A stretch of DNA of 50,001 nucleotides from contig DYRD01000009.1 in assembly GCA_020718905.1 (NCBI GenBank), positions 1 to 50,001 on the forward strand, read 5' to 3'. Positions 12,455 through 18,495 of this stretch are shown piece by piece. The notes under the pieces were generated by a model. The model had not been told where the DNA came from. It saw nothing but the letters and a program-made list of their open reading frames with translations, and searched no databases. The translations under genes and the position numbers were made by a program. Source of the stretch: Syntrophus aciditrophicus. GTDB lineage: Bacteria; Desulfobacterota; Syntrophia; Syntrophales; UBA8958. Numbering within the stretch: the first letter of the stretch is position 1; each line of letters begins with the position of its first letter.

Positions 12455-13219
12455 CTATGCCAGCATCCCTCCGTCCACGGGGATGCATGCCCCCGTCGTA
12501 TAGGATGCGGCGTCGGAAACTAGGTAAAGGACCAGTCCTGCCATCTCTTCCGGCTGGGCCGCCCGGTTCAGGGGGATCATGGGGAGGATGATTTTCATGA
12601 TCTCGGGGCTCTGGATCATAAGAGAGGAAAATTTCGTGTCCGTCAATCCGGGGAGAACGGCGTTGACCCGGATGTGGAAAGGAGCCAGCTCCTTGGCAAA
12701 AGACTGGGTCATAGAGATGATACCCGCCTTGGTTATGGAATAGATCCCCTGGAAGGGCGCCGGCCGGACGCCATTAACAGAGGCGACATTCACGATGACC
12801 CCGCCGCCGTGCTCCTTCATGATTTTCGCCCCCGCCTGGCTCATGAAGAAATATCCCTTCAGGTTGACGTCCACCGTCTTGTCCCAGGCCTGCTCGTCGG
12901 CACTGAGGACATCTCCGAAGAAAGGGTTGGTCCCCGCATTGTTCACCAGGATGTCCAGTTTGCCGTATTCGCTCCGGACCTGAGCGAACAGTTGACCGAT
13001 CTGGTCCATTTCTCCCAAGTGACAGGCAATAGCCGCGGCGTTCCCTCCCCCGGCCACAATCTCTTCCGTGACCCGCTTCAGGCCTTCTGCCCACCTCGCC
13101 GTCAGGATCACTCTGGCTCCCTGCTCGGCAAGCATTTTAGCAATCGCCTCCCCGATACCACGACTGGCCCCGGTTACCAAGGCGGTGCGCCCCGCCAGAG
13201 AAAATATATCCTTTTTCAT
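12455..13219 (-). CDS. Short-chain dehydrogenase/reductase (last gene of acyl-CoA operon)
   Basis: 254-residue classical SDR: cofactor loop TGASRGIGEAIA, NNAG at 92-95, catalytic Ser in NVASVNG, and Tyr/Lys in YSITK. TARWAEGL after strand beta-2 (Arg following it) suggests NADP(H). Likely oxidises or reduces a hydroxyacyl/ketoacyl-CoA. It ends a five-gene minus-strand operon, 40 bases after the kinase gene, with SD GGAGGAAG. In the levulinate pathway an SDR (LvaD) reduces the 4-keto group, and the same role is an inference here. It could equally be a 3-hydroxyacyl-CoA dehydrogenase. Confidence 0.88.
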   Translation of the reverse strand: MKKDIFSLAGRTALVTGASRGIGEAIAKMLAEQGARVILTARWAEGLKRVTEEIVAGGGNAAAIACHLGEMDQIGQLFAQVRSEYGKLDILVNNAGTNPFFGDVLSADEQAWDKTVDVNLKGYFFMSQAGAKIMKEHGGGVIVNVASVNGVRPAPFQGIYSITKAGIISMTQSFAKELAPFHIRVNAVLPGLTDTKFSSLMIQSPEIMKIILPMIPLNRAAQPEEMAGLVLYLVSDAASYTTGACIPVDGGMLA

Positions 13220-13259
13220 CCTGCTTCCTCCTTTTTCATATTTCTCCCGTCTTCATGAC

Positions 13260-14303
13260 CTAGTGCGCCTTTTTTTCCAGAACATGGACGGCAAAGATCA
13301 GCATCCCGAATCGCTTGTCTTGCGTCTGTCCATGATAGAAACGATAATATATCTGCTGGGCGATCACGGCAAGGCGAAATAACCCGAAGGCATAGTAAAA
13401 ATCCATGCTCCCTTCCGACAGCCCCATCCTTTTGCAGTAAAGACCGCTGACTTCTTTCCTCGTCATCATCCCGTCCAGATGGGTGGGAACCAGGCGGATC
13501 GCCTGCATCTCCTCTGGATCATCACCGTTGATCCAATATGCGAGGGCTCCCCCGAGGTCCATGAGGGGATCACCGATGGTGGCCATCTCCCAGTCGAGGA
13601 CACCGATGATACGCAGGGGATCTTCCGGAGCCAGGACGACGTTGTCAAAGCGGTAATCATTGTGAATCACGGCGGGCGCCGGTGATGCTGCCGGCATCCG
13701 TTCATGAAGCCAGGCCATGACCGCTTCATAATCCGGGGCATCGGGCGTGCGGGCTCCCCGATAGCGGTCCGACCAACCCTCCACCTGTCTCCGGACATAT
13801 CCCTCCGGCTTCCCCAGTTCCATCAATGCGGTGTGCCTATAATCGACGCAATGAAGCTCGACGAATACTTCGATCAGCCGTTCGCAAAGGATACGGGCCT
13901 CATCTTTGGACAGGGTCATGCCTGGGGGCAGTTCCTTACGCGGAATGATCCCTTTCAGCCGCTCCATAACGTAGAACGGACAGCCCATGACCGATTCATC
14001 CTCCGTATAGGCGAAGGCCTCCGGGCAGTAGGGAAAATGCGGCCGCAACGCCTTCAGCACCCGAAATTCCCGTCCCATGTCATGAGCCGTGCGGAACTTC
14101 CGGCCGAATGGCGGTCGTCTCAGGACGAATTCACGATCCCCGGCGGAGATTAAACAGGTAAGATTCGAATGCCCGCTCGGAAACTGGGCGATGGTAAGCG
14201 GCCCGTTCAATCCAGGAACTGCGTCTTGAAAATATTTCGCTATTCGGGTGAGATCCAGTTCTTCCCCCGCCCGAACAGGTGTTGCATCATCAATCAGCTT
14301 CAT
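13260..14303 (-). CDS. ACAD10/11-type phosphotransferase (APH-fold hydroxyacyl-CoA kinase)
   Basis: 347-residue aminoglycoside-phosphotransferase-fold kinase of the subfamily found as the N-terminal domain of mammalian ACAD10/ACAD11. Matches to that subfamily by eye: QFPSGHSNLTCLI (nucleotide loop), FVLRRPPFG, AHDMGREFRVLKAL, CPFYVMERLKG, catalytic loop HNDYRFDNVVL with catalytic Asp, and metal-binding VLDWEMATIGDPLMDLG. The catalytic loop has HND where HGD is usual. It lies 36 bases after the ACAD gene, giving as two genes the kinase-dehydrogenase pair that is fused in ACAD11. In those systems the kinase phosphorylates a 4-hydroxyacyl-CoA. Confidence 0.88.
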   Translation of the reverse strand: MKLIDDATPVRAGEELDLTRIAKYFQDAVPGLNGPLTIAQFPSGHSNLTCLISAGDREFVLRRPPFGRKFRTAHDMGREFRVLKALRPHFPYCPEAFAYTEDESVMGCPFYVMERLKGIIPRKELPPGMTLSKDEARILCERLIEVFVELHCVDYRHTALMELGKPEGYVRRQVEGWSDRYRGARTPDAPDYEAVMAWLHERMPAASPAPAVIHNDYRFDNVVLAPEDPLRIIGVLDWEMATIGDPLMDLGGALAYWINGDDPEEMQAIRLVPTHLDGMMTRKEVSGLYCKRMGLSEGSMDFYYAFGLFRLAVIAQQIYYRFYHGQTQDKRFGMLIFAVHVLEKKAH

Positions 14304-14339
14304 TGCTTACCTCATATTACGGCCTATAGGACCCGTTCA

Positions 14340-15560
14340 TTACTTACGGGCCCCCAAGTCTGCCGGTTTGCTTATCTGCTTCATGATTCTCTTGGCCACC
14401 GACATCTTGTGGACTTCGTCGGCGCCGTCATAAATACGCGCCGCCCGCTCATGGCGATAGAAAAAGGCAATGGTCGTGTCATCCGTCATGCCCAGGCCAC
14501 CGTGTACCTGGAGGGCCCGGTCGATTACTTTCTGGAGGACATCGGCTACATAAAACTTGATGAGGGAAATATCGTCTCTTGCCTCTTTGGCGCCGAGGGT
14601 CTCGATCTTCCAGGCCACATGGAGGGTCATCAGCCGGGCCGCCCGGATCTCCGCTGCCGACTCGGCAACCCAGGACTGAATAATCTGCCTCGTAGCGAGG
14701 GTCTTGCCGCCCATCCCAATGACCCGCTGCGCCGCCCGTCGGCACATCAATGCGAGGGCCCGCTGGCAGATGCCGATCCAGCGCATGCAGTGATGAATCC
14801 GGCCCGGCCCCAGTCTTTCCTGGGCGATGACAAACCCCCATCCTTCGGGCCCCAAAAGATTCTCCTGCGGAACCCGGCAGGATTGATAAAGGATCTCGCC
14901 ATGGCTGAAGTAATCGCTGCCGGCGTGACCCATTACGGAGATGTTGCGGACCAGGTTAAAACCGGGGGTATCCGTCGGCACAATGATCATGCTTGCCCGC
15001 AGGTGCGGCGCCTCTGCGGGATTGGTCACGGCCATGACAATGGCGAATTCCGACCCGTCTGCGGCGGTGGTGTGCCATTTCTGGCCATTGATCACATAAT
15101 CCCCGCCGTCCCTGATGGCCGTCGTATCCATCATTACGGGGTTTGAGCCCGGCATGTCCACCTCGGTCATGGAAAAACAGCTCCGGATCTTTCCCTCCAC
15201 AAGTGGCGCCAGGTATTTCTCCTTCTGGGCCGCCGTCCCGTATTTGTGGAGGATCTCGATATTACCCGCATCGGGGGCCTGACACCCGAAGACGTAATGC
15301 CCCAGCGGGCTACGGCCCAACACTTCCGAGACGAGGCCGTGCTCCATAAGATCAAGCCCCATGCCGCCAAATTCCTGGGGATGGTTCGGGGCCCAAAGTT
15401 CCATCTCCTTGACCATGCGGCGTTTTTCCGCCAATTCCGGCAACAGGTCCCGAAACTCCTTCCTTAAAAACTCCGGTTCCAGGGGGATCAATTCCTTCTC
15501 GACAAATTCCTCCATCATCCCGATGATGACCTGCATCTTTTCAGAGATGGCAAAATCCAT
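14340..15560 (-). CDS. Acyl-CoA dehydrogenase, ACAD10/11 subfamily
   Basis: 406-residue flavoprotein of the acyl-CoA dehydrogenase fold, full length. Signatures: CFSMTEVDMPGSNP (FAD/substrate site), YVINGQKWHTTAADGSEF, GPGRIHHCMRWIG, ALQVHGGLGMTDD and YDGADEVHKMSVAKRIMK. The RIHHCMR and DG-DEVH blocks are those I recognise from ACAD10/11 and LvaC-type enzymes rather than from short- or medium-chain beta-oxidation dehydrogenases. In that subfamily the enzyme helps convert 4-phosphoacyl-CoA to an enoyl-CoA. SD AGGGAG before the ATG. Lies between the phosphatase (18 bases upstream) and the kinase gene. Confidence 0.9.
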   Translation of the reverse strand: MDFAISEKMQVIIGMMEEFVEKELIPLEPEFLRKEFRDLLPELAEKRRMVKEMELWAPNHPQEFGGMGLDLMEHGLVSEVLGRSPLGHYVFGCQAPDAGNIEILHKYGTAAQKEKYLAPLVEGKIRSCFSMTEVDMPGSNPVMMDTTAIRDGGDYVINGQKWHTTAADGSEFAIVMAVTNPAEAPHLRASMIIVPTDTPGFNLVRNISVMGHAGSDYFSHGEILYQSCRVPQENLLGPEGWGFVIAQERLGPGRIHHCMRWIGICQRALALMCRRAAQRVIGMGGKTLATRQIIQSWVAESAAEIRAARLMTLHVAWKIETLGAKEARDDISLIKFYVADVLQKVIDRALQVHGGLGMTDDTTIAFFYRHERAARIYDGADEVHKMSVAKRIMKQISKPADLGARK

Positions 15561-15578
15561 AATTTCTCCCTCTTTCCT

Positions 15579-16292
15579 TTACCGGTACGTGACCAGCGCG
15601 GAATCTTTCGCCAGGTCCAGATGGGCCCGGTTATTAAAAGACGTCAGACTGAGCTGCTTCGCGTTATAAACGCAGGATGTAACGGAGGTGTTGACAATAT
15701 GCCACACGACCCGGAGGGTTCCCTCGTCGGAGATCCCCGTGGCCATCTGGAAAACCGCCGCAATAGGCCCACCGGACGTAAAGACCAGGACCGTTTTCCC
15801 CCCGTCGTTCTCCGCCCTGACCTTGCTCATTCCCCTCGCCACCCTTTCCCGGAAATCCCGCCAGGAGGTGACTCCGGGAATATCCTTATCGACCGTGAGC
15901 CAGCGCATGATCACCTTCTCAAAGATCCGCTGAAAGGCCTTTTTGTCCGTATAGAAACGGGCCATATCTCCTGCCGGGCCCGGCTCGTCCTTGGCTATGT
16001 CTCTGACCAGGGCCTTTAGTATCATCCCCTTGGAATCATATTCGTTGAATTCCGGCATGATTTTCAGGATCGGAACCTCCCGCCCCGCCTCGCGATAACA
16101 GGATAGCACCTTTTCGGCCGTGTCGATCTGCCGCGTCATCTCCCCCGTATAGACGGCGTCAAAACTCCGGCCGATCTTCAGCAAATATCCCGCCAGCAGT
16201 TCCGACTGGACATACCCCCGGTCAGACAGATGGTCGTAATGATCCGTTCCAAAGCTCGCCTGGCCGTGGCGGATCAGATAGATGCTGCTCAT
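15579..16292 (-). CDS. Histidine phosphatase family protein (phosphoglycerate-mutase-like)
   Basis: 237 residues from the ATG complement of 16290-16292, which overlaps the stop of the acyl-CoA synthetase by 4 bases (ATGA). Phosphoenzyme motif LIRHGQASFG near the N-terminus, then YTGEMTRQIDTAE, EFNEYDSKG and TSGGPIAAVFQMATG. The second catalytic His of the classical RHG...H arrangement is not obvious: the C-terminal GG block has Pro (SGGPI). Placed between the synthetase and the ACAD gene in a translationally coupled operon. A role on a phosphorylated acyl intermediate or as a salvage phosphatase is inference only. Confidence 0.85.
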   Translation of the reverse strand: MSSIYLIRHGQASFGTDHYDHLSDRGYVQSELLAGYLLKIGRSFDAVYTGEMTRQIDTAEKVLSCYREAGREVPILKIMPEFNEYDSKGMILKALVRDIAKDEPGPAGDMARFYTDKKAFQRIFEKVIMRWLTVDKDIPGVTSWRDFRERVARGMSKVRAENDGGKTVLVFTSGGPIAAVFQMATGISDEGTLRVVWHIVNTSVTSCVYNAKQLSLTSFNNRAHLDLAKDSALVTYR

Positions 16293-18495
16293 GCCGTCCG
16301 CCCCTCGTCCCGTGCGCTTTCCCGCTTCAGCCAGGCCTGGTAGTCCACCATCTTCGTCAGGGCCTTGACCGCCCGCTCCGGGGTGAGAAATGCTACCCCT
16401 TGTAAGGGCTTCCCGGCACATCCGTAACGGTCTTCGTATTTTCATCTTCAAGAAGAATGACCCCCAGGATAGGTTTCCCATATTTTTCCATGAGTTTGGC
16501 ACTTTTTTCATAAAATGCCGTTTCTCCCGCCGCTTCCCTCTCCTGGCCCAGCGTCAGGAATTCCTTGGGAAAGTTCGGGTCCGCCGTTGCTACGGCCTTG
16601 ACCATGTTACTGACAAAATAGGCTCTTCCCACAGCCCCAAGGTGGATGACGGCATCGCACTGATCCCACTTGACGAGGGTCTCCAGAACCCTCAGCGACA
16701 AAGCGGAATCGAACTGTCCAACCAGATCCACGGGATTGGAACGACTCCAGTAGGGCGGCAGGATCTTATCGATTTCCGCCATGACGTCGTCGGTCAGGTG
16801 GGGTACTTCGAGACCCGATTCGACACAGAGGTCGGTGGCCACCACCCCCCAGCCACCGCCCAGGGTCAACATGGCCACCCGTTTCCCTTGCGGTAGGGGT
16901 AGGGAAGAAAACGCCGCCGACAGATCAAGGAGGTCCATGGGCTGCTCCGCAATGACCACGCCTGTCTGGCGGCAGGCGGCATTGAAGATTTTGATATTGG
17001 AGGCCATGGCCCCGGTGTGGCTTGCGGCGGCGCGGTTACCCGCCGCGGTGCGTCCGCCCTTGAGGACAATGACGGGCTTCTTCTTCGCCACCCGCCGGGC
17101 GGCGTTAAAAAATCGCCTCCCATCTTTGATGCTTTCTATATAGAGGACCACCGTCTTTGTCAGGTCATCCGTTTCAAAGCTGTACATATAATCCTCAATC
17201 GTAATCATCGCCTCGTTTCCCGATCCCGAGAAGGCACGGATACCGATTCCTTCCCGCTCGGCAAAGGCCAGGAGCTGGGTGCCCAGATTACCCGATTGGG
17301 CCACCAATCCGATCGAACCGGCCCGAGGCCAGACAGGGGTACCCGTACAGTAGAGTTTTCGATGGGGATTGATGATCCCCATGGTATTCGGTCCCAGAAT
17401 CACGATCCCCGCCGCCGCGGCTGCTTTGACCAGTCCCCTTTCCAATTCCCGTCCTTCTTCCCCCAATTCACTGAATCCCGAGGAAATGAGCAGCACATAC
17501 TTAATCCCCTTGGCCTTGAACTTGGGGATGAGCTCCCGGACCTGGGCCGCAGGCAGGGTAACGACACCGAGGTCAACTTTTCCCGGAATAGCGGCAATGG
17601 AGGGATATACCTTCCGCCCGGCGATATCCTGGCCTTTGGCGTTGACCAGATAAATCTCCCCTTCATATCCCCCCGTCACCAGATCGGTCAGGAGCAGATG
17701 ACCCCATTTACCGGGCTGACCGGAGGCACCGATGAAGGCAACGGCATGAGGGTGAAATATCCGGGCAATATGCTCCGTCTTCACGGGCGGCCGTCCCGCT
17801 GCTGCCGCCGGCCGTTCGCCCAGGACAATCAGGGCGTCGACGGCGCAAACCGACCCGTCGGGTCTGATCAGGAGGGGATTGATATCCACTTCGGTGATCT
17901 CGGGCTGTTCCATACCGAGGCGGGAGAGGCCGGTGATCGTTTGGATAAGCTGCTGCCGCCGGGCCCTTTCCTCACCGCGGAAAGGACCCAACAGCGCCCG
18001 GGACCGCAATTCATCGAGCATCATCCCCGCCTGCCCATCGCTTATGGGGGCTACTCGGAACATGGCATCGCCAAGGGCCTCCGTAAATATTCCCCCTAAC
18101 CCGAACATGACGACGGGACCAAACAGGGGATCACAGAACAAACCGGCGACAAACTCCCTTTTTCCTGCAACCATGGGTTGGACGAGAAAGCCTGCGAGAT
18201 CCTCACCAGCGCCCTTCACAATGATTACGGCCGCTGCCAGCACCTGCTCATGGTCTTGCAGATTCAGGTGAACCAGTCCTTTTTCCGTTTTATGAGTCAG
18301 ACGCGCTCCCAGCCCCTTGAGGACAACTGGGTAGCCTATCCTTTCCGCCGCCGCCACGGCGGCGTCTACGGAGAACACCGCTGCTTCCTCCACCACGGGA
18401 ACGCCATACTCCTTTAATATGTTCTTGGATTCCGCCTCGGTGAGGGTATTTCTTCCTGCGGCCCTTGCTTTTTTGATAACATCATAATTGTTCAT
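16289..18495 (-). CDS. ADP-forming (NDP-forming) acyl-CoA synthetase, frameshifted near its C-terminus
   Basis: Acyl-CoA + ADP + Pi = acid + CoA + ATP type ligase, about 735 residues. Domain order: ATP-grasp first (FLVQPMVAGKREFVAGLFCD, MFGLGGIFTEALGDAM), then CoA-binding (FHPHAVAFIGASGQPGKWGH), then the ligase domain with the phospho-His loop ASHTGAMAS. The uncorrected frame stops at 16393 (GSPYKG). Removing one base near there restores LQGVAFLTPERAVKALTKMV...GRTA, ending at 16289-16291 in an ATGA overlap with the next gene. SD AAGGAGAG before the ATG. First gene of the operon; its reversibility would let the cell conserve energy from an acyl-CoA. Confidence 0.88.

Follow-up and report, generated by a model that had tools for sequence, protein, structure and literature searches.

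The window analysed here is a stretch of 50,001 nucleotides from contig DYRD01000009.1 of a Syntrophus aciditrophicus draft genome (3.0 Mb in 319 contigs, 97.8% complete), and its minus strand carries five genes, encoding a ligase, a histidine phosphatase, an acyl-CoA dehydrogenase (ACAD), an APH-fold kinase and an SDR oxidoreductase, which probably form a catabolic operon feeding acids with a hydroxy or oxo group at carbon 4 into beta-oxidation. The gene names agree with the Pfam and NCBIfam matches, and open reading frames (ORFs) together with family matches confirm the five minus-strand genes that an earlier note on this DNA had placed between positions 12455 and 18495. That note had also given the genes overlaps or gaps of 18 to 40 bases; the gaps measure 18, 36 and 40 bases, and the overlap, of 119 bases, is between the ligase ORF and an over-extended phosphatase ORF. 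A species-genome scan covered 84,980 genomes, and the best 80 of 591 confirmed candidate loci were analysed; these comprise 43 loci from Pseudomonadaceae and 37 from other organisms, at least three of the latter (L083, L085 and L098) belonging to the window's order, Syntrophales. Among these best 80 loci the nearest named relative by kinase is a Syntrophus sp. metagenome-assembled genome (84% identity).

The route that we propose would begin with the formation of an acyl-CoA by the ADP-forming ligase, after which the SDR would interconvert 4-oxoacyl-CoA and 4-hydroxyacyl-CoA, the kinase would use ATP to phosphorylate the 4-hydroxyl and give a 4-phosphoacyl-CoA, and the ACAD would eliminate the phosphate in a flavin-dependent, redox-neutral reaction, delivering a 2-enoyl-CoA to beta-oxidation with no external electron acceptor. 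The phosphatase-fold protein would have an accessory part, whether as a phosphatase of weak or altered activity that removes stalled phosphoacyl species or as a partner without catalysis of its own. We infer these reactions, including the carbon-4 position and the substrate, and the roles predicted for the ligase and the SDR rest on their position in the operon. ACAD10 has been reported to work without added electron acceptor (PMC11342911), and an acceptor-free last step of this kind would suit an anaerobe. The host genome gave no match to haem-copper oxidase (PF00115), which 8 of 14 control genomes have, and this absence fits an anaerobic host without proving that the host is an anaerobe.

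The ACAD (14340..15560, minus strand), which is of the ACAD10/11-LvaC type, is well supported by its residues and by its place in the tree as a predicted 4-phosphoacyl-CoA lyase. The dehydrogenase of ACAD10/11 needs R626, H634, R637 and D753 (mouse ACAD11 numbering), a set established by structure, modelling and mutation (PMC12440821), and a pocket Pro has been defined as well (PMC11342911). By alignment the window ACAD has the phosphate-binding residues R626, H634 and R637 on its HCMR helix, the catalytic D753, with Asp at this position instead of Glu, and the pocket Pro; the RIHHCMR and DGADEVH blocks that the earlier note had pointed out are both present. R626, H634, R637 and D753 are found in all 39 rows of the group containing the window ACAD, and any of the four in none of 10 conventional ACADs, of which 2 come from Pseudomonas and 8 from the host's own genome (14 PF00441 matches, two of them the module's ACADs; of the other 12, 8 were used, L209 was unusable and L210-L212 were left out). 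The pocket Pro occurs in 2 of the 10 conventional ACADs and is thus unspecific, and one group row has no data for it. Trees were built from 22 of the 37 non-Pseudomonadaceae loci, 7 of the 43 Pseudomonadaceae loci (kinase only) and a few further loci. In the ACAD tree the window protein groups with ACAD11, the Pseudomonas HCMR ACADs and LvaC, apart from the 10 conventional ACADs, with support of 100/99, so that tree and residues together uphold its earlier placement within the ACAD10/11-Lva clade; LvaC branches first in this group, where long branches meet, and its exact placement is therefore unsure. Homologues of the kinase and the ACAD from Burkholderia have been reported to substitute for the domains of ACAD10 in vitro (PMC11342911).

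The kinase (13260..14303, minus strand) is predicted to act on 4-hydroxyacyl-CoA, a role that rests on residues and linkage and less on the tree. In the kinase domain of mouse ACAD11, D220, N225, R86 and R176 have been singled out by structure and modelling, and the catalytic Asp by mutation (PMC12440821). Aligned in that numbering, the window kinase has the catalytic D220 and N225 and the CoA contacts R86 and R176, that is, all the tested residues of the ACAD11 kinase, which bears out the subfamily signatures claimed for it; three LvaA rows are without R86 and R176. It is 32% identical to ACAD11 over 315 residues, 26% to a fragment of 25-hydroxysteroid kinase (25-HSK) over 227 residues and 21% to LvaA, and in the tree it falls in a clade of its own, which has 36 rows and stands next to ACAD11, 3dxp and another Pseudomonas kinase. 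In a second kinase tree, from which the steroid kinase was left out and to which a plasmid LvaA was added, four LvaA sequences form a clade that excludes it (100/100; midpoint root). As for its earlier assignment to the ACAD10/11-Lva clades, the kinase is joined to ACAD11 without firm support and stands apart from LvaA. The predicted kinase model (predicted local distance difference test score, pLDDT, 91.5) matches 3dxp (Z 30.5, 314 residues aligned, root-mean-square deviation (rmsd) 3.0) and 25-HSK (Z 26.7 over 318 aligned residues, rmsd 3.5); the latter match is a warning that the substrate cannot be read from the fold alone. Among solved kinases the nearest in sequence is PDB 9o56 (44% identity), which is not among the 50 structure matches listed and under which no paper was found in the open-access literature.

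The arrangement of the genes is conserved beyond the host. We mapped 20 longer regions around same-order kinase homologues, the second copy of the host's own genome included, and found the contiguous order ligase, phosphatase, ACAD, kinase and SDR in nine of them (six in the window's genus, a seventh in a different genus within its family, and the remaining two in separate genera of a second family), so that the five-gene order does recur in Syntrophales relatives, in two families. In two of the nine regions a contig end truncates the ligase, and one region has its kinase split over two frames. The other 11 regions, some of them cut by contig ends, include four that show no SDR, one without a ligase despite 5.7 kb upstream, one in which the phosphatase was undetected and seven in which a TetR gene precedes the kinase or takes its position. 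A search of 149 genomes of the order (E <= 1e-30 for the kinase, <= 1e-100 for the ACAD and <= 1e-20 for the phosphatase) gave the kinase in 25 genomes, the ACAD in 22, every one of them also kinase-bearing, and the phosphatase in 24 (21 of them with the kinase). The co-occurrence with the kinase exceeds chance for both partners, with hypergeometric p of 2e-23 for the ACAD and 1e-18 for the phosphatase, values that are uncorrected for relatedness. At E <= 1e-60 the kinase is present in 46 of 297 genomes of the phylum.

The phosphatase ORF of 310 amino acids is over-extended; its homologues start at the RHG block, which sets the start at 16292 and gives a histidine-phosphatase-fold protein of 237 amino acids (15579..16292, minus strand). 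The first catalytic motif, RHG, is found in the window and in 54 of 56 sequences, the remaining two having RHA in one case and being cut in the other. The second catalytic His is replaced by Ser in 55 of the 56 (SGG in the window) and by Ala in one, the set being the window protein and 55 others from L035-L054 and L083-L162, which includes one contig twice, as L036 and as L083, and two hits, in L148 and L157, that are not next to the kinase. This Ser aligns with the catalytic His of the solved phosphatases 9mmh and 5zkk. For phosphatases without this His, a single paper, on PGAM5, was listed in the open-access literature. The predicted fold is standard for branch 1 (pLDDT 88.5), with PhoE (1h2e) as best match (Z 22.2, 196 aligned, rmsd 3.2). 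Due to the Ser at the second catalytic His, a role as a main-line phosphatase appears doubtful, and because such an enzyme would undo the work of the kinase we read the protein as a probable accessory.

The ligase ORF (16393..18495, minus strand) is shortened to 700 amino acids, its frame being broken near the 3' end by one base fewer after AAGGG, near 16395, than in four same-genus relatives. Three relatives with a full-length ORF (L035-L037) encode 735-736 amino acids and overlap the phosphatase start by 4 bases; in the window the rest of the coding region, recognized by alignment with relatives (16289..16395, minus strand), lies out of frame, and its TGA overlaps the ATG of the phosphatase. 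Either a true mutation or an error in the assembly may account for this difference. The domains of the ligase, ATP-grasp_5, CoA-binding and Succ_CoA_lig, are those of ADP-forming acyl-CoA synthetases, and its best solved matches are ADP-forming 4-hydroxybutyrate-CoA and 3-hydroxypropionate-CoA ligases, so that domain content (Pfam, NCBIfam) and structures agree with the ADP-forming type previously assigned to it. A ligase of at least 60% identity is present in 13 of the 20 same-order regions. Relatives of the ligase, whole or partial, lie on six other contigs of the host genome, and the choice of an ADP-forming enzyme may therefore be typical of the host. ADP-forming CoA ligation spends one phosphate bond, against two otherwise. 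It is plausible that ADP formation would partly offset the ATP used by the kinase, and so save energy.

Across the best 80 loci the module takes different shapes, as judged from genes at most 1,500 bases apart, which we counted as linked, some loci being cut by contig ends. In the 37 non-Pseudomonadaceae loci the kinase is linked to an ACAD in 32, a TetR gene in 28, a phosphatase in 18 and an SDR in 9. In Pseudomonadaceae an SDR follows the kinase in 43 of 43 loci, which makes the kinase-SDR bond tightest there; a phosphatase together with the lipid-carrier protein SCP2 is present in 18 of these loci, SCP2 only in one, and neither lies within 1,500 bases in 24. Since the phosphatase is not beside every module, it is not essential everywhere. 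No ACAD was found in the examined flanks (up to 10 kb) of the kinase in the 43 Pseudomonadaceae loci, and an HCMR-type ACAD is encoded elsewhere in the genome in 22 of 22 Pseudomonadaceae genomes searched. The window SDR (12455..13219, minus strand) belongs to the PRK07035 family and is a predicted 4-oxoacyl-CoA reductase or 4-hydroxyacyl-CoA dehydrogenase. In the lva route LvaD makes or drains the hydroxyacyl substrate of the kinase (PMC6692424), and the tight bond in Pseudomonadaceae would suit an SDR with a similar part. In the open-access literature no paper was found under the PAO1 locus tags PA1828-PA1831. In the genome of one of these loci (L145, Pseudomonas izuensis), a separate module (L198:5949-8121) combines an LvaA-like kinase, DUF6285 and an SDR; nothing in the 10.5 kb around it matches the window ACAD, and its neighbours, named by eye, are thiolase-like and enoyl-CoA hydratase-like.

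The earlier note had likened the operon to the levulinate pathway and to ACAD10/11, and had proposed that the histidine phosphatase replaces LvaB. Two lva operons were recognized for comparison, one in the genome of Pseudomonas vranovensis (L196) and one on the Stutzerimonas stutzeri plasmid NZ_CP078510.1 (L223); in each, lvaA is followed by a small DUF6285 gene, which by operon context we take as LvaB. The likeness to ACAD10/11 stands, on the ACAD residues and the ACAD tree, and membership of the lva operons is rejected: the kinase lies outside the LvaA clade, no DUF6285 match was found in the 97.8% complete host genome, and within the operon, to which this comparison was confined, the ligase has ADP-forming domains and is not of the AMP-forming LvaE type. 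The gene kinds of the window do match those of a levulinate cluster in Pseudomonas citronellolis LA18T, with kinase, phosphatase, ACAD and SDR (PMC6692424), and yet the SDR shares 39% identity with LvaD, a level usual among SDRs in general, against 60% with its Pseudomonas counterpart in the kinase-SDR cluster. A true lva operon with a histidine phosphatase in the place of LvaB is the most improbable of the readings considered here. The plasmid carries a complete lva-type operon (L223 634-10801; plasmid typed mobilizable) in which DUF6285 adjoins a canonical histidine phosphatase; the two are hence not alternatives, and replacement of LvaB by a phosphatase is rejected as a general rule. The window's phosphatase is without the second catalytic His and belongs to a different subfamily from the plasmid protein, with which it aligns over only 71 residues at 31% identity. 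The plasmid phosphatase keeps both catalytic His (RHG and SHD, assigned by eye from the family pattern). A phosphatase in a cluster without LvaB was in any case published in 2019 for P. citronellolis, with phosphate removal suggested as its function (PMC6692424), and is hence not new.

Several observations weigh against a carbon-4 pathway. The kinase shares only 32% identity with that of ACAD11, and the fork joining the two apart from LvaA and 25-HSK (94/77) is below the mark for firm support; the 25-HSK fragment, which does not cover the R86 region, also has R176; and no tested member was found for the clade of the window kinase, whose phosphorylated position or substrate may differ. The kinase model also scores the steroid kinase (Z 25-27, about 320 residues) above the ACAD11 entry 8v3v, which is matched at Z 19.5 over 221 residues (rmsd 2.5), at rank 31 and level with choline kinases. 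The NCBIfam matches of the ligase score below the curated cut-offs and leave its substrate unfixed, and in the best 80 of 591 loci the ligase stands beside the module in only two, L083 and L085 (in the latter about 2.3 kb upstream of the ACAD), both from the window's order, while L147 has a 36% match on the opposite strand; judged by these loci, the ADP-forming ligase has been added to the module in the window's order. No transporter or lactonase was seen within the operon, the genome having been searched for neither. The infirm grouping with ACAD11 and the structure ranking lower our estimate of the carbon-4 reading and raise that of a pathway with the same kinase and phospho-lyase logic directed at another hydroxyl, for instance the hydroxyl of a 3- or 5-hydroxyacyl-CoA, of a tertiary or branched alcohol, or of the side chain of a sterol or isoprenoid. 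In anaerobic cholesterol oxidation it is 25-HSK that initiates an ATP-dependent dehydration (PMC8449060), and SCP2 precedes the kinase in 19 of the 43 Pseudomonadaceae loci; by sequence, however, the kinase is nearer to ACAD11 than to 25-HSK, its partner ACAD has the complete phosphate-binding set, and ACAD10-dependent phosphorylation was reported with 4-hydroxy-, not 5- or 6-hydroxyhexanoate (PMC11342911). Another hydroxyl is, all considered, unlikely, though it is the strongest of the competitors. Appreciably less probable, and only slightly ahead of a true lva operon, is a biosynthetic or detoxifying role in which 4-hydroxyacyl-CoAs from lipid damage or side reactions are removed and no growth is sustained. 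The mammalian enzymes ACAD10/11 have 4-hydroxy acid lipids as substrates (PMC12440821), and the TetR-type regulator lies inside the cluster in the 28 non-Pseudomonadaceae loci that link it to the kinase; an acid:CoA ligase in the operon points instead to activation of a free acid, and lipid peroxidation should be minor in a cell without haem-copper oxidase.

The host genome holds a second copy of the operon on another contig (L053, C138:1-6415), truncated by the contig and comprising phosphatase, ACAD (77% identical), TetR gene and the start of the kinase. An aldehyde:ferredoxin oxidoreductase on the opposite strand adjoins this copy, the same neighbour being present at L044 in another genome, a hint that the precursor handled by the second copy is an aldehyde or an acid.

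Chemistry of this kind is known, and what looks new is the setting in an anaerobe and the combination of genes: in the open-access literature, covered by titles and abstracts, no paper on the module in anaerobes was found among the matches listed. It is a tentative and rather unlikely extension of the catabolic reading that syntrophs use 4-hydroxy or 4-oxo acids or gamma-lactones by an oxygen-independent, energy-sparing route in which a phosphatase fold deprived of its second catalytic His serves as dedicated partner or regulator of the kinase. If true, this would be a new function for the histidine-phosphatase fold, common to syntrophs through Pseudomonas. The catabolic reading itself would extend the chemistry of ACAD10/11, seen in the literature covered in mammalian, Pseudomonas and Burkholderia proteins, to anaerobes, for which a redox-neutral removal of the 4-hydroxyl would be especially useful. 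The phosphatase with its conserved Ser for His is a concrete and testable puzzle, and the genes offer a protein set with which to trace the substrates of a kinase clade that is common in Pseudomonas and Desulfobacterota and for which we found no tested member.

Placing the operon beside known systems, mammalian ACAD11/ACAD10 (PDB 8v3u/8v3v) offers the same pair of kinase and ACAD with all the tested catalytic and phosphate- or CoA-contact residues kept and with ACADs that group together in the tree. It differs in that the window uses two separate proteins (identities of 32% for the kinase and 39% for the ACAD), that the window kinase falls in a separate clade, and that its operon adds SDR, ligase and phosphatase-fold genes. 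The Pseudomonas lva operon (LvaABCDE; L196, L223) likewise unites kinase, ACAD, SDR and CoA ligase, some versions also carrying a phosphatase, whereas its LvaA is distant from the window kinase, the window has no LvaB match, its ligase is ADP-forming and not AMP-forming, and its phosphatase is of another subfamily. Levulinate cluster 2 of P. citronellolis LA18T has the same kinase, histidine phosphatase, ACAD and SDR, and is reported to be without LvaB; its LvaA and LvaC homologues are 59% and 78% identical to those of KT2440 (PMC6692424), unlike the window kinase and ACAD, which share 21% and 36% with Pseudomonas LvaA and LvaC. The 25-hydroxysteroid kinase (9fsg, 9ft5) resembles the window kinase in fold and in the logic of an ATP-driven dehydration in an anaerobe, and departs from it in sequence (26% over 227 residues) and in having a steroid alcohol as substrate, not the acyl-CoA predicted here. 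The ADP-forming 4-hydroxybutyrate-CoA ligase (8wzu), best solved match of the window ligase, is of the same family with the opposite domain order. In the Pseudomonadaceae cluster, finally, with its kinase and SDR preceded in some loci by histidine phosphatase and SCP2 (43 loci among L110-L162), the kinase is 56-60%, the SDR about 60% and the phosphatase about 38% identical to those of the window, and the phosphatase has the same SGG change; the difference is that no ACAD lies in its examined flanks, an HCMR-type ACAD being encoded elsewhere in the genomes searched.

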